Positions 47,929-58,784 of a stretch of DNA of 64,000 bases are shown piece after piece (positions within the stretch are counted from its first letter, which is position 1; every line of letters begins with the position of its first letter). Source of the DNA: Escherichia ruysiae (lineage in GTDB: Bacteria; Pseudomonadota; Gammaproteobacteria; Enterobacterales; Enterobacteriaceae); assembly GCF_031323975.1 (NCBI RefSeq), contig NZ_JAVIWS010000001.1:4216001-4280000 (forward strand). The letters run 5' to 3'. Below the pieces are notes generated by a model. The model saw nothing but the letters and a program-made list of their open reading frames with translations. It did not search any database and was not told the origin of the DNA. The position numbers and the translations under genes are program-made.

Positions 47929-48976
47929 GTTCACTGCCGTACAGGCAGCTTAGAAATACGTCCTGACCGATCTTCTCTTTACCATCCTGTTCACTGCCGT
48001 ACAGGCAGCTTAGAAACGGACCTGAAATACCAGTGTCTTATTCTCCTGGTTCACTGCCGTACAGGCAGCTTAGAAATGTAGATAAATAGCTGTTTGAAAG
48101 GCATGTTAGTTCACTGCCGTACAGGCAGCTTAGAAAGAAAATATTCTTGCTGATGAAGTTTCGACTGAGTTCACTGCCGTACAGGCAGCTTAGAAATCGG
48201 AATCTATTGCTAATTTGTATTTTTTAGCGTTCACTGCCGTACAGGCAGCTTAGAAAGATTGAATATCTGCGAGATCAACGGTGGTTGCGTTCACTGCCGT
48301 ACAGGCAGCTTAGAAAGCTCTGGCTACCGGCGGTTGCAGGTCTGGCTCGTTCACTGCCGTACAGGCAGCTTAGAAAGACAACGAACGCTATTTCATTGTG
48401 ACTGAATAGTTCACTGCCGTACAGGCAGCTTAGAAATGAGAAATATGCTCCGTCACATACCCTTCCGTGTTCACTGCCGTACAGGCAGCTTAGAAAAGAA
48501 ATGGTGCGGCTTCACATGGGTAGCTTATGTTCACTGCCGTACAGGCAGCTTAGAAAGTGTAGTAATTCGGACATTTTGAGTTATCGCCGTTCACTGCCGT
48601 ACAGGCAGCTTAGAAATGTTAATTTCTGGCATGAACAGCGATACATCAGTTCACTGCCGTACAGGCAGCTTAGAAAGGGGATTCCTGGTCTTCGACGGGC
48701 AGCTCGTTGTTCACTGCCGTACAGGCAGCTTAGAAAGCGATGCGGTTACCCTGTCCGCGCCCACGATAGTTCACTGCCGTACAGGCAGCTTAGAAATCAT
48801 TAATCGCTCGCGAACGCGCGCTAATGAGGTTCACTGCCGTACAGGCAGCTTAGAAAGGGTCGTCGTTCCTGCTCGATGCGTTATCGAAGTTCACTGCCGT
48901 ACAGGCAGCTTAGAAAAGACACTCTCTGGTGGAGAGAAGCGGAAGATTGTTCACTGCCGTACAGGCAGTTTCACAA
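47929..48976 (+). CRISPR. Type I-F CRISPR array 1 (18 repeats, 17 spacers)
   Basis: A 28-bp repeat beginning GTTCACTGCCG and ending CTTAGAAA, containing the CTGCC / GGCAG hairpin cut by Cas6f, repeats every 60 bp exactly; all spacers are 32 bp. The last repeat (48949-48976) keeps the first 20 bases but ends TTTCACAA, marking the distal end; the leader is therefore on the left and transcription rightward toward cas1. All 17 spacers differ. No spacer match within the window was noticed; their targets need a database search. Confidence 0.98.
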
Positions 48977-49145: not shown

Positions 49146-50129
49146 ATGTCTTCAAATTACCTTACTCCTTCTGACCTCAAAACTATTCTCCACTCCAAAC
49201 GCGCCAATATTTATTATCTGGAAAAATGCCGGGTGCAGGTGAATGGTGGGCGAGTGGAATATGTTACCAGTGAAGGTAAGGAGTCGTACTACTGGAATAT
49301 CCCTATTGCGAATACCACGGCGTTGATGTTGGGGATGGGAACTTCCGTTACCCAGGCGGCGATGCGTGAATTTGCCCATGCGGGGGTGATGGTAGGATTT
49401 TGTGGTACGGATGGCACACCGCTTTACTCCGCCAATGAAGTAGATGTTGATGTCTCCTGGCTCAGCCCACAAAGCGAATATCGTCCTACCGAGTACCTTC
49501 AGCAATGGGTTTCTTTCTGGTTTATTGAAGACAAACGACTTGCCGCCGCGAAACGTTTTCAGTTAATCCGCCTGACACATATTGATAAGCACTGGACCAG
49601 CGCGAAAATGCAGCGTGAACACGCATTTCAACCTGATACCAGCGTGCTCCAGACCTTGATAAATCGTACTCGCGAAGAAATAGACGCGGCAGAAAACCAT
49701 ACGCAGCTTATGCTCGTAGAAGCCAAAATGACCAGGGCGTTATACAAAATGGTCAGTCAAACAGTGGGCTATGGCGATTTCACCCGCGCAAAACGGGGCG
49801 GTGGGATTGATATGGCCAACCGTTTCCTCGATCAAGGGAATTATCTGGCCTATGGCCTGGCGGCAGTGGCGGCGTGGGTAACAGGTATTCCCCACGGTTT
49901 AGCGGTAATGCACGGTAAAACACGTCGCGGTGGGCTTGTTTTTGACCTTGCCGATCTGATTAAAGATGCCCTTGTTATGCCACAAGCATTTATCGCCGCA
50001 ATGGCGGGAGAGAATGCTCAGGAGTTTCGTCAACGCTGCATCAATATCTTTCAACAAGCGGATGCGCTGGATGTCATGATCACCTCTCTGCAGGAAACGG
50101 CTCAGGCACTGGCTAAGGGTGACCAATGA
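49146..50129 (+). CDS. cas1: Cas1 (type I-F integrase)
   Basis: A 327-residue Cas1f. N-terminal beta domain (SKRANIYYLEKCRVQVNGGRVEYVT) and helical catalytic domain with metal residues: Glu in VEAKMTRALYK, His in GIPHGLAVMHGKTRRGGLVFDLADLIKDALVMP, and Asp in the same segment. Role: with Cas2 inserts new spacers at the leader end. ATG 49146 is set by AGGA seven bases upstream; the GTG at 49140 is too close. Its stop overlaps cas2-3 by 4 bp. Confidence 0.97.
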   Translation: MSSNYLTPSDLKTILHSKRANIYYLEKCRVQVNGGRVEYVTSEGKESYYWNIPIANTTALMLGMGTSVTQAAMREFAHAGVMVGFCGTDGTPLYSANEVDVDVSWLSPQSEYRPTEYLQQWVSFWFIEDKRLAAAKRFQLIRLTHIDKHWTSAKMQREHAFQPDTSVLQTLINRTREEIDAAENHTQLMLVEAKMTRALYKMVSQTVGYGDFTRAKRGGGIDMANRFLDQGNYLAYGLAAVAAWVTGIPHGLAVMHGKTRRGGLVFDLADLIKDALVMPQAFIAAMAGENAQEFRQRCINIFQQADALDVMITSLQETAQALAKGDQ

Positions 50130-53100
50130 ACGTCCTGATTATTTCGCGATGCACAAAAAATGCTCGTGTTGAGAGTTGCCGTATTATTGATCAGTTTGCC
50201 GAACGCACAGGTGATGCCGCATGGCAAACGGTGATTACTCAGGAAGGTGTTAACACTTTACGCCGTTTACTGCGCAAAACGGCAAGACGAAACACAGCGG
50301 TTGCTTGTCACTGGCTGAAGAAGAATGGGCAAACGGAGCTGATGTGGATTGTCGGCAATATTCGTCGCTTTAATGATCAAGGCCGCGTTCCCACAAATCG
50401 AACAACGCAAACCAGCCTGGTGAACAAAGAAGAACATCGCTGGCAGTGCGCGGAAAGCATTGCGCTGCTGGCGGCTATTGCTGGGTTATTTCATGATTTT
50501 GGTAAAGCAGGACGCAGCTTTCAGCAAAGCCTGACCAAAAAGAGTGCACGAAGTTATCAACCTTACCGGCATGAGTGGATTTCGCTGCGGCTTTTTCAGG
50601 CTTTTGTCGGTAAGCAGTCAGATGATGTGTGGCTGGAAAAACTTGGGGAATTAACGGCAGATGATGAAACCGCGATTCTTGAGCGCCTGCAAAAGGACAC
50701 GCCTCATTTTTCCAATAGTCCATTCAGTTCGCTGCAACCACTCGCCAAAACGGTAGGCTGGTTGATCCTTTCCCATCATCGAATGCCGGAGAATCTTTCG
50801 CCACAACCGGAACAATCATGCAAAGGCTGTGAAAGTTGGCTGGAGAAGCAACTCAATGCTGACTGGAATGCCGTTAACCACCGTAAGAATGACTGGTCAC
50901 CTCAGGATTTCGAGCAAGTCTGGCAGTTTCCGGCAGGCACTCCGCTTCAAAGCGCGAGCTGGCGAGAAAAAGCGCGTCAGATTGCCCGTCGGGCGCGTAA
51001 CGCTGTCGGTTTAAAGGAATGGGGGCTGATGGAGCAACTGTTTCCATTACATATGGCGCGTTTTTGCCTGATGCTTGCCGATCACTACTATTCATCTAAC
51101 GACGCGCAGCAAAAATGGCAAGATCCGAATTATATCGTCTGGGCAAATAGCGATCGGCAGAGCGGCACGCTCAAACAACGGGTAGATGAGCATCTTGTGG
51201 GCGTCGCGCATCATGCGTATTTGCTTGGGCGGCAACTGATGCACACACGGGCATCGCTTCCGGCAATTGCCCGACATAAAGGTTTTAACCAGCGAGCTAC
51301 AGATGCGAAATATCGCTGGCAGGACAAAGCCTGGGATGTGGCGCGTGCGTTACGTGAACGCAGTCGGGAAGATGGTTTTTTCGGTGTCAATATGGCCTCG
51401 ACGGGGGGCGGTAAAACCTTTGCTAACGCCCGAATTATGTATGCGCTTGCTGATGAGCGTGAAGGGTGTCGCTTTACCATCGCATTGGGATTACGTACGC
51501 TGACTTTACAAACGGGTGATGCTCTGCGCAGCCGGCTTGGACTCGGTGAGGATGAGCTGGCTGTACTGATTGGTTCGGCGGCAGTCAAACAACTCTGGCA
51601 GCAGGAAAAAACAGACAATGATTGTGGAAGTGCTTCGCAAGAGTCGCTGGCAGAGGAGCAACAGTTTGTTAAATACGAAGGCAGTCTTCATACCGGGGCG
51701 CTGGAAAAATGGTTGAAGGATGACAGCAAACTTAAGGAGTTAGTAAGCGCACCGATTCTGGTAGCAACGATTGATCATCTTATTTCCGCGACCGAAGGTG
51801 TGCGTGGCGGGAAACAGCTTCCGGCGATGTTGCGTCTGTTAACCAGTGATTTAGTGCTCGACGAACCTGACGATTTTGATATTGCCGATCTCTATGCAGT
51901 ATGTCGTCTGATGAACTGGGCCGGAATGTTGGGAACGCGGGTATTACTTTCTTCCGCGACGTTGCCGCCAGATTTGATTCAGGCTCTGTTCGCGGCTTAT
52001 CTTGCCGGGCGCAAAATGTGGCAGGCGTCATGCGGCACGAACGGCAGACCCGTCAATATCTGCTGTGCCTGGTTTGATGAAAAAGATGCCGATGCCACAC
52101 AAATTGGTGATGGCGCTACTTTTCGTGAGACGCACAAAAAGTTTGTTGCGCGACGAGCGTTAATGTTGGCTGAAAAAGAACGACTGCATTTCGGGCGTAT
52201 AGCTTCGATTTCATCCCCATCAAGCGCGACTCAGGATGTTATCGAAAGCGTGGCTCAGACGGTACATGAGCAAATGTTGAAGTTGCATCAGGCGCATCGC
52301 CAGCAACACGAAAGCGGCAAAACTGTTTCGCTGGGTCTGGTGCGCTTCGCCAATATTAATTCTCTGGTCGCGGTGGCCAAAGCTCTGATTACCATTCCTT
52401 CACCAGAAGATGTCTGCATTCATTATTGCGTTTACCACTCCCGACATCCGCTGGCGGTACGTTCAAATATTGAGAAGCGGCTGGATCGCGCTTTTACTCG
52501 TCATAGAGAAGATGATTTCTGGAAAAACGAGGATATCGCTGAAGCCTTACATAAAAGTCCGGAATCGCACCATATTTTTGTGGTGTTGGGCACATCAGTT
52601 ATAGAAGTGGGGCGTGACTGGGATGCGGACTGGGGAATTATTGAACCGAGTTCTATGCGTTCGATTATTCAATTTGCCGGACGTATTCAACGCCACCGCA
52701 GAAATGTGCCAACCAGTGAGAATCTGGTTATTTTGCGGAGCAATATCAAAGCATTGCAGAAAAAATGCCCCGCATTTTGTAAACCGGGTTTCGAAACAAA
52801 AGATCGCGTGCTGAATAGCCATGATATTTGCGAGCTGATACCACTCACGGACTACCGGACGATTAATGCCTTACCACGGATCTTACCTGCCAATAATGAA
52901 AATAAACTGGCGGAACTTGAGCATAGTCGTTTATTCACCGAGTTGATGAGTAGTAAAAGCAAACATGTGGTAGCTGCGCAATGGTGGCGCGCACCGCTAA
53001 GCTGGAACGGCTGGATGCAGCGCCAGACGCCTTTTCGTTATTCGTCGTTACCGGAAGCGGTGTTTTTTCTGCATATGGATGACGAAGAAAGTAAAGCGAG

Positions 53101-53359
53101 TTTCTATTCCCGCATGGGCGACAACGAGCGTAAAGAGCAGGGGAATTTCAAACGAGAAGACGTGATATGCGCCAGCGGCGTTGCTTGCTGGGGCATGATG
53201 GATTACCAACAAGTTTTGTTGGATCTGGCTGTTGAGCACAGTTGTGAGATTAATCGTGTCGGGGAAAGGTTTGCTGAAGTGAGAGTACCCGTCTGTGACG
53301 AAGATGCGCTCAACGGCTGGCATTATCACCCATGGTTAGGGGTGTTTCGCGCCCCGTGA
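50126..53359 (+). CDS. cas3: Cas2-Cas3 fusion (type I-F nuclease-helicase)
   Basis: A 1077-residue fusion typical of type I-F. Residues 1 to about 95 are the Cas2-like domain. The HD nuclease follows, with GLFHDFGKAGR (H123-D124). The SF2 helicase begins with Walker A STGGGKTFANA near residue 424, DEAD-like box LDEPDD near 578, SSATLPP, and motif VI QFAGRIQRHR. A C-terminal domain follows. Role: Cas2 part scaffolds Cas1 for adaptation; Cas3 part degrades target DNA after Csy-complex recruitment. All motifs are intact. Its last codons form half of a strong hairpin (53347-53369). Start coupled to cas1 (ATGA). Confidence 0.97.
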   Translation: MNVLIISRCTKNARVESCRIIDQFAERTGDAAWQTVITQEGVNTLRRLLRKTARRNTAVACHWLKKNGQTELMWIVGNIRRFNDQGRVPTNRTTQTSLVNKEEHRWQCAESIALLAAIAGLFHDFGKAGRSFQQSLTKKSARSYQPYRHEWISLRLFQAFVGKQSDDVWLEKLGELTADDETAILERLQKDTPHFSNSPFSSLQPLAKTVGWLILSHHRMPENLSPQPEQSCKGCESWLEKQLNADWNAVNHRKNDWSPQDFEQVWQFPAGTPLQSASWREKARQIARRARNAVGLKEWGLMEQLFPLHMARFCLMLADHYYSSNDAQQKWQDPNYIVWANSDRQSGTLKQRVDEHLVGVAHHAYLLGRQLMHTRASLPAIARHKGFNQRATDAKYRWQDKAWDVARALRERSREDGFFGVNMASTGGGKTFANARIMYALADEREGCRFTIALGLRTLTLQTGDALRSRLGLGEDELAVLIGSAAVKQLWQQEKTDNDCGSASQESLAEEQQFVKYEGSLHTGALEKWLKDDSKLKELVSAPILVATIDHLISATEGVRGGKQLPAMLRLLTSDLVLDEPDDFDIADLYAVCRLMNWAGMLGTRVLLSSATLPPDLIQALFAAYLAGRKMWQASCGTNGRPVNICCAWFDEKDADATQIGDGATFRETHKKFVARRALMLAEKERLHFGRIASISSPSSATQDVIESVAQTVHEQMLKLHQAHRQQHESGKTVSLGLVRFANINSLVAVAKALITIPSPEDVCIHYCVYHSRHPLAVRSNIEKRLDRAFTRHREDDFWKNEDIAEALHKSPESHHIFVVLGTSVIEVGRDWDADWGIIEPSSMRSIIQFAGRIQRHRRNVPTSENLVILRSNIKALQKKCPAFCKPGFETKDRVLNSHDICELIPLTDYRTINALPRILPANNENKLAELEHSRLFTELMSSKSKHVVAAQWWRAPLSWNGWMQRQTPFRYSSLPEAVFFLHMDDEESKASFYSRMGDNERKEQGNFKREDVICASGVACWGMMDYQQVLLDLAVEHSCEINRVGERFAEVRVPVCDEDALNGWHYHPWLGVFRAP

Positions 53360-53369
53360 AGGGGCGCGA
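53347..53369. terminator. 9-bp GC hairpin over the cas2-3 stop codon
   Basis: Perfect inverted repeat TCGCGCCCC / GGGGCGCGA with GTGAA loop; the TGA stop lies in the loop. There is no T tract on either strand. On the minus strand it forms the 3' end of the mini-CRISPR, replacing the normal handle of its second repeat. Confidence 0.6.
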
Positions 53370-53443
53370 GCTGCCTGTACGGCAGTTTACAAGTCCGTAT
53401 CCGGAGATACATCTATTTCTAAGCTGCCAACGGCAGTGCGTGA
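53363..53443 (-). ncRNA. Degenerate one-spacer mini-CRISPR (CreA/CreR-like guide RNA candidate)
   Basis: Read leftward. First repeat-like unit (53443-53416): CACTGCCG, shortened loop, GGCAG, then an intact CTTAGAAA handle. Next is a 25-base spacer (53415-53391) starting TAGATGTATCTCCGG. The second unit (53390-53363) has the exact hairpin CTGCCGTACAGGCAG but no proper handle. It differs from the two normal arrays by orientation, spacer length and decayed repeats. The Cas6f hairpins and the 5' handle are kept, so a usable crRNA could form. Its seed matches the csy1 leader beside a CC PAM (see target). I infer a Cascade-guided regulator; not proven. Confidence 0.75.
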
Positions 53444-53472
53444 ATATTAATCTCGCAACTATTATGTTTCAA
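53444..53472 (-). promoter_or_regulatory. Candidate sigma-70 promoter of the mini-CRISPR
   Basis: On the minus strand TTGAAA (53472-53467), exactly 17 bp, then TAATAT (53449-53444). A start about 7 bp downstream (near 53437) would begin the RNA at the first repeat hairpin, with no leader. Confidence 0.6.
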
Positions 53473-53496
53473 ATGATTTATGCATGGTAATATAAC
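53468..53496 (+). promoter_or_regulatory. Candidate sigma-70 promoter for csy operon / small ORF
   Basis: TTCAAA (53468-53473), 17 bp, TATAAC (53491-53496). The -35 overlaps the -35 of the leftward mini-CRISPR promoter, forming a back-to-back pair. The expected start is near 53503. A weaker alternative is TTGGTT-N18-TAGATT, ending at 53527. Confidence 0.5.
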
Positions 53497-53513
53497 TTTG
53501 GTTTATTGCATTG

Positions 53514-53547
53514 GGTTTAGCTAGATTAATGCGTAGATACATCTAGG
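53514..53547 (-). promoter_or_regulatory. Candidate Cascade target of the mini-CRISPR
   Basis: On the minus strand CC (53547-53546, correct I-F PAM) is followed by TAGATGTATCT (53545-53535), identical to the first 11 spacer bases. Positions 13, 14, 16 and 17 also match; 12 and 15 differ, and 18 onward diverge. Position 12 and 18 are flipped out in type I crRNA duplexes, so the effective seed is better than it looks. The PAM bases are part of the AGGTGA ribosome-binding site of the small ORF. Confidence 0.7.
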
Positions 53548-53557
53548 TGAACTATCC

Positions 53558-53620
53558 ATGATTATCACCACGGGTGTTGTCCCTTTTGCTGTATGCGTCG
53601 TTGTACTGAAGCCATGTTGA
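53558..53620 (+). CDS. Small hydrophobic ORF (20 codons) upstream of csy1
   Basis: ATG ... TGA encoding MIITTGVVPFAVCVVVLKPC: one short hydrophobic stretch with a Lys near the end. AGGTGA lies 7 bp before the ATG. Too short for standard gene calling. It sits between the mini-CRISPR target and csy1, 67 bp before csy1. Small hydrophobic peptides are often toxic, and a Cascade-repressed toxin (CreT-like) would fit, but it could equally be a leader peptide of csy1 or not translated. No homologue known to me. Confidence 0.4.
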   Translation: MIITTGVVPFAVCVVVLKPC

Positions 53621-53687
53621 GCTACGGAGATTTTTCAGTGAAGTTAGGGAACAACTTTAATTTGATGGATTAACGAAAGGAGCCGAG

Positions 53688-54995
53688 ATGGAAAAAACGG
53701 CGCTAATACAATTTATTACTGATTACATCGCTTCGCGAAGGCAACCCAAAATCGATGCTTTTGAAAAAGAAGCAGCAAAGAGGCTGGAGCAGAGCGATGA
53801 TGCCAGCGCCATCGCTCAGGAACGGCAGGAACTTGAAGCACGCTACCTGCCTCGTAACTGGTTAACGGATGCGGCGAAGCGTGTTCGTTCTATAAGGATA
53901 ATCTCCCACGGGGCAAAATATAGTAATGGTGACTCCAAAGCATATGGACGTTATTTGGAGAAATTCGTCAGCGAGGGATATTTAAATACAGCATCACTGG
54001 CAATTATTAAAGAGGATGCTGAAGGCAACGCTGCATTTTATGATGTTGCAAAAATACTCCTAACAGATGTTCACGGAGATTCGTTACTCGCCAGCTTAAA
54101 ACGTGGCGATTATCAATCATTAAATGCCTTTGCGTTGGATGATGAACAACTAAAACAATGGGTTGAATGCTTTAGTCAAGCATATGCATCGGAGTGGATA
54201 AAAGCGCACAAACTATCGAAGCAAATCTATTTCCCTGTGGATGATGGTTATCACCTGTTATGCCCGCTGTTTTCCAGCTCACTGGCGCAGGCAATGTATG
54301 AAAAGCTAACCGCTGTGCGCTTTAGCGAGGAATCAAAAGCCATTCGCGATGCGCACAAGGCAGGTAAATGGCACTCACAGCCAGATATTCGTTTCCCTAA
54401 TCTTGCTGAGATGTATTATGGAGGTGGAAATCAACAGAATATCTCCCTGCTAAACAGTGCCAGAGTTGGACGCGTCTGGTTGTTGCCATCAATGCCCCCC
54501 ACCTGGACGACGCAGGAGCGCGCACCACAAAACATGCGCAGTATTTTTGCCTTACGCGGTTATTTCAATCGCTCAGCTTCGGGCACTATCGCCCGGATGA
54601 CCTACTTACTGAAAGTTGACATAAACAATGTTCATATTCGTACTGCGCGCGCGAAATATATTGATGAGTTGATAGATTTGCTGTTCATGCAGGCATCCTC
54701 TTTTCAGCAAGAAAAATGGCAGGGGTGGTCAGCACAATCACCAGAATTACCTCGTCACCAGCAGCTTTGGCTGGACCCGTGGCGAAGCTTGTCAGATGAG
54801 GCTTTCAAACTGGAGCGTGAGAAAAACGACTGGCAGAGGATAGTCGCTGATGACTTCGCGCGCTGGCTGAACTATCGCCTGAAAAAAGCAAGTTTCGATG
54901 TGGGAGCCGTCGAGCAAAGAGAGTGGCGTAGTCAGTCCCTGTTCACTCAACGGATGCGTGAAATGGAAGCCGTTTTGCAGGAGGCGCTGAAATGA
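53688..54995 (+). CDS. csy1: Csy1 (Cas8f), large subunit of the I-F Cascade
   Basis: A 435-residue Csy1. The N-terminal helical opening is typical (LIQFITDYIASRRQPKIDAFEKEA). Family features are RVRSIRIISHGAKYSNGDSKA and RVWLLPSMPPTWT. Role: forms the tail of the Csy surveillance complex with Csy2, binds the 5' handle and recognises the CC PAM. AAAGGAG is 6 bp before the ATG. It begins the csy1-2-3-4 operon; the Csy2 start overlaps by 4 bp. The upstream 328 bp is the regulatory region described above. Confidence 0.96.
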   Translation: MEKTALIQFITDYIASRRQPKIDAFEKEAAKRLEQSDDASAIAQERQELEARYLPRNWLTDAAKRVRSIRIISHGAKYSNGDSKAYGRYLEKFVSEGYLNTASLAIIKEDAEGNAAFYDVAKILLTDVHGDSLLASLKRGDYQSLNAFALDDEQLKQWVECFSQAYASEWIKAHKLSKQIYFPVDDGYHLLCPLFSSSLAQAMYEKLTAVRFSEESKAIRDAHKAGKWHSQPDIRFPNLAEMYYGGGNQQNISLLNSARVGRVWLLPSMPPTWTTQERAPQNMRSIFALRGYFNRSASGTIARMTYLLKVDINNVHIRTARAKYIDELIDLLFMQASSFQQEKWQGWSAQSPELPRHQQLWLDPWRSLSDEAFKLEREKNDWQRIVADDFARWLNYRLKKASFDVGAVEQREWRSQSLFTQRMREMEAVLQEALK

Positions 54996-55915
54996 GTTAT
55001 CTGCTCTTGTTACCCCATATACGCATAGAAAACGCTAACGCCGTTTCCGGGTTGACCTGGGGATTCCCGGCGATGACCCATTTTCTCGGCTATGTTCATG
55101 CGCTTTCTCGCAAAGTGGTGGATGAATTTGGCGTAAGTTTTGCCGGTTGCGCAGTCGTTAGCCATGAACAGCATATTCAGGCGTACAGTTCCGGGCGCGA
55201 TTTTCAGTTTGCTCTCACCCGTAACCCATTAACCAAAGAAGGTAAAACTGCCTCGTTCAATGAAGAGGGGCGTATGCACCTGACGGTTTCTCTACTTGTT
55301 GAATGTAATGGCGAAATTACTAATGGTGAATACGGTAGAAAAGCCCTGTGTGACCATCTGAAAATGCTTTGCCAGAGCCATAAACTGGCGGGTGGCAGCA
55401 TTGTCAGTATGCGCGATCCGCAGCTTTTTCATGCACCAGAAGATGAAAAGCAACTGCGTAAAATCATCTGGCGTTTAATGCCGGGTTACGCGCTTTACGA
55501 TCGCAGCGAATGGCTGGCTGAACATCACCAACAACATCCTGACATATCGTTGCTTGATGCCTGGCTCGATTTCGCCGCCATTAAATATCAGGCCGAATCC
55601 CCGGCTGAAGACAATACCGCACAATGGACATACCAGCCGAAGCCAATGCCCGGTTTCCTCGTGCCATTAATGTGTGGTTACCAACGTATTTCTCCTGTGT
55701 ACGCCTCTGGTGAAGTTGAAAATGCGCGCGACACCGTGACGCCATTTGCTTTTGCCGAAGCCGTTTATGGGATTGGTGAATGGCGCGGATTACATCGCAT
55801 CACTGACCTGCAACCGCTGATGTGGCGCTACCGTACAACGGACACTGGATACTATTGCTCGGCAATACCACTCGTTGACGACCCTATAACTCATGAAGAT
55901 GACGATTCAGAATAA
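54992..55915 (+). CDS. csy2: Csy2 (Cas5f)
   Basis: A 307-residue RAMP-fold protein. It opens [38 protein letters not shown], typical of Csy2. Role: pairs with Csy1 to cap the 5' handle of the crRNA in the Csy complex. It overlaps csy1 by ATGA. Followed by csy3 after 10 bp. Confidence 0.96.
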
Positions 55916-55925
55916 GGACATAATT

Positions 55926-56927
55926 ATGGCAAAGGCTCCTGTAGCAATAAAAACAGCATCGGTACTGGCATTTGAACGCAAACTGGCAACATCCGACGCG
56001 GTGATGTATGCCGGTAACTGGCAAGGAAATGAATGGCAACCTATTGAGATTCAGGAGAAAGCGGTTCGTGGAACCATCTCTAATCGCCTGAAGAACACGA
56101 TTACCAGCGATCCCACCAAACTGGATGCTGAAATCCAAAAAGCCAACCTACAACGGGTGGATGTGGCTTCGCTTCCGGTAGATGCAGATACGCTAAAAGT
56201 GGTGTTTACGCTGCGAGTGCTGGGTAATTTATCTTCACCTTCAGTATGTAATGATATGGCCTATCAGGAGGCGCTTTCTGAGGTCATTGAAGGTTACATC
56301 AGCGAGCATGGCTTTAAAGAGCTGGCGTTACGCTATGCGCTGAATCTGGCAAATGGTCGTTTTTTGTGGCGCAACCGCATTGGTGCTGAGCAGATCCAGG
56401 TGAAAGTTACTGCTAATGATTCGTCCTGGACTTTTAACAGCCATGACTTCTCCTTACGTCAATTTGATCAAGGCCAGAGTAGCGTCACAGAACTGGCGGC
56501 AACGATTGAACAAGGATTAAGCGGAAAAGAGTGGGTCATGCTTACGGTTGAGGCACAGGTTCGCCTCGGTGCCGGGCAAGAAGTCTTCCCATCACAGGAA
56601 CTGGTGCTCGACAGTAACAGTAGCAAAAGTCGTGTGTTGTACCAGGTTGCAGGCATTGCCGGTATTCACTCCCAAAAAATTGGCAACGCTTTACGTACCA
56701 TTGATACCTGGCATCCGAAGGTTGATGAGTTGGGAGCTATCGCTGTGGAACCTTATGGTTCTGTAACCAGTCGCGGTGTCGCTTGTCGTCAGCCAAAAGA
56801 AAAACTCGATTTTTATACCTTACTGGATAATTGGGTGACTAAAGGCGTCAAACCGGAAGTTGATCAGCAGCACTACGTGATGGCTGTCTTGATTCGTGGT
56901 GGTGTTTTTGGTGAGAAAGCGGAATAA
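55926..56927 (+). CDS. csy3: Csy3 (Cas7f), backbone subunit
   Basis: A 333-residue Cas7-type RAMP protein: [30 protein letters not shown] opening, [23 protein letters not shown] crRNA-binding region, and the C-terminal GGVFGEKAE. Role: six copies form the helical backbone along the crRNA. ATG 55926 is chosen behind AATAAGGACATAATT; the earlier ATG overlaps csy2. Confidence 0.96.
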
Positions 56928-56937
56928 GGAGCTGTCA

Positions 56938-57492
56938 ATGGATCACTATCTTGAGATCCGTGTTCTGCCCGATCCTGAATTTTCGAGTGAAATGTTGATG
57001 GCGGCGTTATTTGCCAAATTGCACCGGACATTGGGTGCAAGAGGGCAAGGTGATATCGGCGTGAGTTTCCCGGACATAAACGTTACGCCAGGAGCGCGCT
57101 TACGCTTACATGGTAGCGCCCCGGCATTGCAGGAGCTTGAAGACTCAACGTGGCGTAAAGGGCTTACGGATTATTGCCAATGTTCGCCTGTCACTCCCAT
57201 TCCAGAAATAAAGGGCTGGCGAGTGGTAAGTCGTGTGCAGGTTAAAAGTAACCCACAGCGTCTGTTAAGGCGTTCAGTGAAAAAAGGCTGGCTTACTGAA
57301 GAACAGGCGATTGAGCGACTGGCGACGCAAGCTGAACAGCGGACCGATTTACCTTTTCTTAATATGAAGAGTTTGTCGAGTCAGCAACAGTTCAAGTTGT
57401 TTATCCAGCACGGTGATTTGCGCGCAGAACCGGTTAAAGGGGAATTCAGTAGTTATGGATTAAGCGCAACAGCAACCATACCCTGGTTTTGA
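56938..57492 (+). CDS. csy4: Csy4 (Cas6f), crRNA endonuclease
   Basis: A 184-residue Cas6f. MDHYLEIRVLPDPEF opening, with catalytic His29 in AKLHRTLGARG, then the Arg-rich helix (LLRRSVKKGW) that grips the repeat hairpin, and the C-terminal YGLSATATIPWF. Role: cuts each repeat 3' of the CTGCC-GGCAG hairpin, giving crRNAs with an 8-nt CUUAGAAA handle. The start at 56938 is preceded by AAGGAGCTGTCA. A terminator follows. Confidence 0.97.
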   Translation: MDHYLEIRVLPDPEFSSEMLMAALFAKLHRTLGARGQGDIGVSFPDINVTPGARLRLHGSAPALQELEDSTWRKGLTDYCQCSPVTPIPEIKGWRVVSRVQVKSNPQRLLRRSVKKGWLTEEQAIERLATQAEQRTDLPFLNMKSLSSQQQFKLFIQHGDLRAEPVKGEFSSYGLSATATIPWF

Positions 57493-58156: not shown

Positions 58157-58784
58157 GTTCACTGCCGTACAGGCAGCTTAGAAAGCTGAGCAAAACGCAT
58201 TAACACAAGACTGGTCGTTCACTGCCGTACAGGCAGCTTAGAAAGAACAAAATTACCGCTGGCAGCATACGAAGGTGTTCACTGCCGTACAGGCAGCTTA
58301 GAAAGTTCGGAGTCGGCCTGTTCTGGCTTAAACTGTGTTCACTGCCGTACAGGCAGCTTAGAAAAAGCATGACGGCCAAATCACTCTTTGCAGAAAGTTC
58401 ACTGCCGTACAGGCAGCTTAGAAACACACCAAAACTGCTAACCATAGCAGCCCATTGTTCACTGCCGTACAGGCAGCTTAGAAATGGACGCTGATGACCT
58501 GAGCGATGAAGAAAAAGTTCACTGCCGTACAGGCAGCTTAGAAAGGCAAACCAGGATGCGTATTATGACGACGAGCGTTCACTGCCGTACAGGCAGCTTA
58601 GAAACTGCTCCTCTAATTTATGCAGATATGCGTTTAGTTCACTGCCGTACAGGCAGCTTAGAAACGTGCATCATGAATCATGCTGTTCAGCACGCGGTTC
58701 ACTGCCGTACAGGCAGCTTAGAAAGCCGAAGCCCGGCGTAGCCGGTACGGATCATCGTTCACTACCGCACAGGCAGTTATAAAA
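58157..58784 (+). CRISPR. Type I-F CRISPR array 2 (11 repeats, 10 spacers)
   Basis: The same 28-bp repeat as array 1, with 32-bp spacers every 60 bp, in the same orientation. The last repeat (58757-58784) is degenerate (GTTCACTACCGCACAGGCAG then TTATAAAA), so the leader end is on the left. All ten spacers differ from each other and from array 1. Transcription runs toward the infA terminator. Confidence 0.98.

Follow-up and report, generated by a model that had tools for sequence, protein, structure and literature searches.

In the type I-F CRISPR-Cas locus of Escherichia ruysiae (assembly GCF_031323975.1), a two-repeat mini-CRISPR between cas2-3 and csy1 likely steers the Csy complex onto the csy1 leader, where it would repress the csy1-csy4 transcript in the manner of CreR; this repression is predicted to proceed without cutting. 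We put the probability of this reading at roughly 0.63, judging from comparisons of sequence. An earlier, sequence-only reading of the locus had proposed that a degenerate mini-CRISPR supplies a guide whose seed pairs, beside a PAM, with the csy1 leader region. That core is strengthened by the co-variation of guide and target and by recurrence in other I-F loci, and the novelty of kind that it implied is not supported.

The window, that is, the whole stretch of 64,000 nucleotides that was analysed (contig NZ_JAVIWS010000001.1, positions 4,216,001 to 4,280,000), contains a type I-F locus made up of an array, cas1, cas2-3, csy1 with the ORFs behind it, and a second array. The ORFs behind csy1 are presumably csy2-csy4, names that we assign from gene order. 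The gap between cas2-3 and csy1 measures 328 bp. The features referred to are as follows.

47929-48916: array with 17 repeats called by Rfam
50126-53359: cas2-3
53371-53436, minus strand: two-repeat mini-array with degenerate repeats, read directly, between cas2-3 and csy1
53371-53390, minus strand: repeat 2 stretch GTAAACTGCCGTACAGGCAG, with the exact array hairpin CTGCCGTACAGGCAG, read directly
53391-53415, minus strand: spacer (guide) TAGATGTATCTCCGGATACGGACTT, 25 nt, its length set by the start of the repeat-2 hairpin minus 5
53416-53436, minus strand: repeat 1, hairpin CTGCCGTTGGCAG and handle CTTAGAAA, read directly
53444-53472, minus strand: predicted mini-array promoter TTGAAA-17-TAATAT, 7 nt before the repeat-1 hairpin, by consensus match only
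53535-53545, minus strand: target of guide positions 1-11, by sequence match
53546-53547, minus strand: CC, the I-F PAM (GG on the plus strand), kept in 20/20 Escherichia loci
53558-53620, plus strand: hydrophobic leader ORF, 20 codons here and 27 in several relatives, start and expression predicted
53638-53673, plus strand: 11-codon GTG leader ORF with GGAG at 53626-53629, a candidate creT-like mini-ORF or leader peptide
53688-54995, plus strand: csy1 (TIGR02564)
53688-57492, plus strand: csy1 and the following csy genes, the predicted regulated operon
58157-58724: array with 10 repeats called by Rfam

Direct reading from 53436 to 53371 gives a minus-strand repeat-spacer-repeat with decayed repeats, just as the sequence-only reading had it. 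The hairpin and handle described for repeat 1 are both present (CTGCCGTTGGCAG-CTTAGAAA), with the refinement that the loop is 3 nt long against 5 in the array repeat, and repeat 2 does carry the exact hairpin attributed to it. The flanking arrays have a period of 60 bases, with 28-base repeats and 32-nt spacers. Set against the near-identical 28-nt repeats and 32-nt spacers of an ordinary I-F array, the mini-array departs in its degenerate repeats and its 25-nt spacer, and it is absent among the window's 27 repeats called at the Rfam gathering score.

The first 11 bases of the guide had been said to recur at 53545-53535 beside CC, and this match proves to be unique genome-wide and beyond chance. 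CCTAGATNTATCT has a single occurrence in the 4.64-Mb genome, at the csy1-leader target; among 20,000 dinucleotide-shuffled versions of 53414-53687, the exact CC plus 11-mer arose once; and none of the window's 27 array spacers has a CC plus 8-nt match in the 328-bp gap. Beyond the seed, spacer positions 13, 14, 16 and 17 also pair with the target and position 12 is mismatched, all as previously described, and position 15 is mismatched too. The PAM-distal half of the guide (53391-53404, running into repeat 2) is invariant in 20/20 Escherichia loci. Pairing with the target does not run the length of this half, which counts against csy1 repression. A 15-mer from the half is found nowhere else in the genome, and a genome search with the 3′ half of the guide, at up to 1 mismatch, returned only the mini-array itself.

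Copies of the guide were also sought in mobile elements. Four pattern matches in IMG/VR have no repeat hairpin within 60-70 bases on each side, and no phage or plasmid copy was shown by one weak phage match and 11 plasmid records, of which H124 alone was inspected; the match in H124 falls in the clpA-infA interval. A search of the plasmid collection with the csy1 leader gave no match. One E. coli plasmid record of 88 kb (NZ_CP134387.1) contains a clpA-infA-aat stretch that is usually chromosomal, and its clpA-infA interval holds an I-F repeat-like match.

The region is present, at a coverage of at least 80%, in 237 of 5426 complete E. coli genomes. Twenty Escherichia loci were read, namely 13 of these 237, six from other genomes of the genus, and the window. 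An alignment of the gap across strains, which the sequence-only reading had put forward as a check on whether seed and target change together, gave a positive answer: guide and target are identical at positions 1-5 and 7-11, beside CC, in 20/20 loci, position 5 changes in both partners and position 6 drifts. At position 5, T stands in guide and target in the window, G007 and the 503025 group, and G in both in the UTI89 group, G002, G003, G006, G009 and G011; at position 6, guide and target differ in 12/20 loci. The co-change at position 5 may be a single event, a point that counts against csy1 repression. When the gaps were scanned without any motif, the CC-flanked target site ranked best in 17/20 loci and, in the other three, tied with its own opposite strand, the target there being self-complementary. 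From guide to target, only 49 of 87 bases are identical between the window and UTI89, and UTI89-type targets pair within positions 13-17 only at 13 and 16. One of the eight genus genomes with csy1, G010, is missing guide, target and leader together. The cas3-csy1 gap of that genome is collapsed, and its csy1 frame is still open. STEC299 and FDAARGOS_1284 both keep the guide-target match, even though one of them has a cas3f annotated as partial and the other a csy1 annotated as a pseudogene.

Regions upstream of csy1 in other I-F loci were gathered by TIGR02564 searches, as named loci and as sequence stretches, and scanned for a handle, then a guide, then a CC-flanked match at positions 1-5 and 7-11. 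Four family-level genomes with only sub-cut-off Csy1 fragments were left out, as was one locus at a contig end (L200), and L198 was kept although its csy1 frame contains stops. In the genus and family set, 19/61 loci match, versus 16/610 shuffles, a count that includes two loci (L027 and L041) that look like chance. Order- and class-level loci entered the analysis from among the matches listed, 30 per search, together with 20 more order-level stretches. In an enlarged set, with a stricter handle, 48 of 157 unique regions from among the matches listed match their own target, versus 6/1570 shuffles. These bearers include Pectobacterium, Brenneria, Photorhabdus, Serratia, Yersinia pekkanenii, Erwinia, Leclercia, Enterobacter cloacae, Cedecea, Stenoxybacter, Marinomonas and Desulfamplus. 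A further screen for both hairpins, with a looser handle and match and without a shuffle control, retained 70/205 distinct csy1-upstream regions; once L034, L131 and L104 were dropped as chance, 67/205 mini-array loci were left, including 13 Escherichia rows and falling into 29 seed clusters by loose single linkage.

Guides set against foreign loci match at all 10 positions in 25 of 4524 cross-locus pairs, and 20 of these 25 involve Escherichia guide 11-mers. The stems of repeat 1 are compensated across lineages, for example CTGCC/GGCAG, CTGCT/AGCAG, CTATC/GATAG and CTACT/AGTAG. Four order-level loci (L208, L210, L211 and L213) show a same-direction arrangement, with the mini-array on the plus strand 121-147 nt upstream of a CC-flanked target. 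Self-folding of the spacer was considered as a general feature and rejected, with 3/31 spacers beating 95% of shuffles versus 2/27 array spacers (the 31 exclude L018 and L092, which have no perfect second hairpin, and L160, a chance match).

In type I guides, every sixth base is flipped out. When the scan was run without requiring a PAM, CC stood beside 37/50 distinct pairs, against a background of 5%, and 19 of the 26 single mismatches among the CC pairs fell at position 6. Across 49 distinct guides, for whose selection positions 6 and 12-17 were not used, guide and target match at position 6 in 16, at 12 in 12 and at 13 in 43. The seed-only pairing proposed earlier fits Escherichia best; in many other lineages, pairing extends to position 17 and skips 6 and 12.

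The spacer is shorter than 32 nt in 64/67 mini-array loci. It is 15 nt or less in 7/67, which counts against csy1 repression. According to the available part of a study on an Aggregatibacter I-F1 system, guides that lack 6 or 12 nt still bind, those shortened by at least 6 nt do not trigger Cas2/3, spacers near 15 nt bound weakly, and spacer length equals 6N-4 for N Cas7f subunits (PMC7296934). We infer that the 25-nt spacer would fit about five Cas7f subunits, and, if the Aggregatibacter behaviour is transferred to Escherichia, spacers below 32 nt should keep Cas2/3 off. Across the 29 clusters, the periodicity of spacer length is suggestive, with p about 0.002 for period 6 and about 0.005 for period 5.

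Promoter-like sites in the region number 3, versus 0.9 in shuffles. With approximate promoter weights of our own, the best predicted mini-array -10 ends exactly 7 nt before the hairpin in 22/49 distinct guides versus 42/980 shuffles, and TTGAAA-17-TAATAT in the window has this same 7-nt gap. For targets on the same strand, the -10 of the best csy1-ward promoter ends 27-32 nt past the PAM and its -35 abuts the PAM in 22/44 distinct guides versus 27/880 shuffles. Single-locus promoter scores are weak, with p<0.1 in 23/49 cases for the mini-array and 13/44 towards csy1, and this counts against csy1 repression; so does the promoter scan in Escherichia, which placed no csy1 promoter and in which the PAM/-35 geometry was not seen. 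The cas genes of strain LF82 are called constitutive in the accessible part of a published account (PMC3506596), a further point against. The same account reports that csy1 is expressed in LF82 and that cas1-cas3 and csy1-cas6f are separate units with no co-transcription (PMC3506596). Since the units are separate and csy1 is expressed, a csy1 promoter would be placed in the cas3-csy1 gap. In three loci (L158, L161 and L193), 63-72 nt separate the PAM from the predicted csy1 start, an interval in which no small-protein ORF was seen, an arrangement that we class as putative direct control of csy1. In the window, the interval from target to csy1 showed no terminator-like site. The idea that the csy1 leader RNA is structured is not supported (z-score 0.38; 0/36 pairs with changes on both sides).

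Between the target and csy1, small ORFs are found in many lineages. The 27-codon form of the Escherichia hydrophobic ORF has a pN/pS of 0.08-0.52 on few changes; the ORF is shortened to 20 codons in the window and disturbed in frame in the UTI89 group, and guide-target pairing is kept there. Just before csy1, the 11-codon ORF with its Shine-Dalgarno-like GGAG has an identical length in 20/20 Escherichia loci. In many Enterobacterales, the PAM lies about 190-340 nt from csy1, and the space encodes a single-pass membrane protein of about 50 amino acids (L015, L016, L017, L024, L031, L037, L049, L084, L088, L110, L117 and L118). Its pN/pS is 0.23-0.35 within Pectobacterium, 0.26-0.42 within Photorhabdus, and 0.40 between L015 and the Brenneria locus L018. 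At less than 0.5 where tested, these ratios indicate purifying selection. A screen for hydrophobic ORFs was positive in 42/67 mini-array loci versus 15/138 others, a difference to be read with the fact that the screen takes the most hydrophobic short ORF of each region, so that part of the 42 is chance. Among the 15 others, L018 and L092 do carry a mini-array; the remaining 13, like some of the 42, look unrelated to the family of about 50 amino acids. A profile search with this family returned 13 proteins, the named ones hypothetical or uncharacterised and from Yersinia, Serratia and Photorhabdus, and the members tested matched no family above cut-off in Pfam, NCBIfam or PADLOC.

How the guide might act can be outlined as follows. 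The mini-array would be transcribed from its own predicted promoter, and Cas6f would cut at both hairpins, yielding a crRNA with the CUUAGAAA handle. By the 6N-4 rule, its short spacer would assemble a Csy complex of about five Cas7f subunits (PMC7296934, in its available part). Pairing of positions 1-11 beside CC would then hold the complex on the DNA and block transcription, and the short R-loop would leave Cas2/3 untriggered, as truncated guides do in the other I-F1 system according to the same source. By analogy with CreR, such a loop would sense free Csy complex, and repression would be relieved by many ordinary crRNAs or by an anti-CRISPR. Control of csy1 would extend to the leader ORFs that lie between it and the target.

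A different role for the same parts has to be weighed here. The guide could be the antitoxin of a CreTA-type module that silences a toxic leader RNA or a small membrane peptide, in which case loss of Csy would harm the cell and csy1 would be a bystander. We consider this a serious rival, though less likely than csy1 repression, on a balance of the following points. The precedent from Acinetobacter I-F has the same gap and parts, among them a 33-bp mini-ORF with a Shine-Dalgarno sequence (PMC10097628, in its available part), and the Escherichia 11-codon ORF (33 bp plus stop) with GGAG stands in 20/20 loci; it is for this latter reason that the CreTA explanation gains and our confidence in csy1 repression is lowered. 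The membrane-protein ORF behind the operator in many genera, with pN/pS of 0.23-0.42, and the joint lack of guide, target and leader in G010 speak in its favour as well. Against it, the missing terminator-like site in the window means that a transcript from the target would enter csy1, and in several lineages the target stands so near csy1 (63-72 nt) that no small-protein ORF was seen in the interval. Csy1 control is favoured in Escherichia because guide-target pairing persists despite decay of the hydrophobic ORF, which is short in the window and disturbed in frame in the UTI89 group, an argument that an RNA toxin escapes. A broader version, to which we give the same probability, is that in many Enterobacterales the guide serves as antitoxin in an addiction module whose toxin is a protein, with the protein of about 50 amino acids first behind a Cascade operator, and that Escherichia is shifting from toxin silencer to pure self-regulator; the shift is suggested because guide and target still pair where the small ORF has been truncated or has lost its frame.

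Both roles could also be played at once, with a single transcript comprising leader gene and csy1-4 and the guide tuning them jointly. The leader ORFs and csy1 do share a strand and an operator with no terminator-like site in the window, but several lineages have no small-protein ORF between operator and csy1, and we judge this combination improbable. Least probable of all is a functionless relic, either a fragment of an array in decay or a spacer taken long ago from the genome itself. The degenerate repeats and shortened spacer are what a relic would show, and in L016 the spacer resembles its own target over 27/35 bases, as if copied from it. Such decay is hard to reconcile with the co-variation, the kept PAM, the compensated hairpins, the confinement of drift to position 6 in Escherichia, or the 48/157 regions versus 6/1570 shuffles. 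Repression of csy1 by the mini-array guide is the reading that we prefer.

Mini-arrays partly matching cas8 promoters were reportedly described by Shmakov et al. in 2023, and one I-F1 mini-array is said to have been tested there as a regulatory guide. Among the closest known systems is the characterised CreTA of Acinetobacter I-F, located in the cas3-csy1 gap and with a demonstrated toxic RNA; in the available part of that work, CreA represses its target through the Csy complex without need of Cas3, 17/20 bases pair (not the 6th, 11th and 18th), and 19 more modules were found by hand in related gaps (PMC10097628). Positions 13-17 of the Acinetobacter guide are described there as essential, which counts against csy1 repression here. 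The two systems share the gap, the PsiR1-PsiS-PsiR2 build, a CC-flanked partial target, a short spacer (20 nt in Acinetobacter, 25 here), and a position 6 that is unpaired there and free here. Downstream of its target, Acinetobacter has a 33-bp mini-ORF in a unit divergent from creA, and the 11-codon ORF is a candidate counterpart by length and GGAG. The systems differ in that the leader here is unrelated in the tests made and that the target is placed 142 nt upstream of the csy1 start.

With CreR, the window shares two repeat-like hairpins flanking one spacer inside a cas locus and PAM-flanked partial complementarity upstream of the cas effector genes, from which autorepression is predicted. 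The CreR target sits at a cas promoter; elsewhere the -35 abuts the PAM in 22/44 distinct guides, and in Escherichia no csy1 promoter was placed. CreR autorepression is reported for types I-B, I-E and V-A (PMC13131331; see also PMC12737573). The available part of the former does not list I-F, and leader ORFs are a further difference. Autorepression by the Cas9 tracr-L likewise uses an 11-nt PAM-adjacent match at its own cas promoter and binding without cleavage, and differs in its type II effector and its tracrRNA-derived guide (PMC8616872, available part). Racr elements are likewise I-F repeat-like and outside arrays; as described in the accessible text, they are viral decoys consisting of solitary repeat units, whereas the mini-array here flanks a spacer with two repeats and has its target within the cas locus (PMC10651486).

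The novelty of kind implied by the sequence-only reading is not borne out, given CreTA in the same Acinetobacter I-F gap (PMC10097628, as far as available). The kind is already known; what is added here is the Escherichia case, the record of co-variation, and the small leader ORFs including the membrane protein of about 50 amino acids. Part of these additions may already stand in the supplements of the Acinetobacter CreTA and Shmakov papers. Among the matches listed in our literature search, no paper on the Escherichia I-F mini-array or on these small ORFs was recognised by title or abstract, which does not prove their absence from print.

The natural guide-target pairs provide a ready test set for I-F Cascade binding without cutting, characterised by free positions 6 and 12, spacers below 32 nt and, in many, a PAM set against the -35. 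With leader ORFs behind the operator, autoregulation of the CreR kind and addiction of the CreTA kind come together in one place, and the choice between them is testable. If our reading is true, the I-F system that 237 of 5426 complete E. coli genomes have at this position uses a built-in guide to meter its own surveillance complex. The expression of cas genes would then respond to anti-CRISPRs and to spacer load, and work on 'constitutive' I-F activity would have to allow for that.
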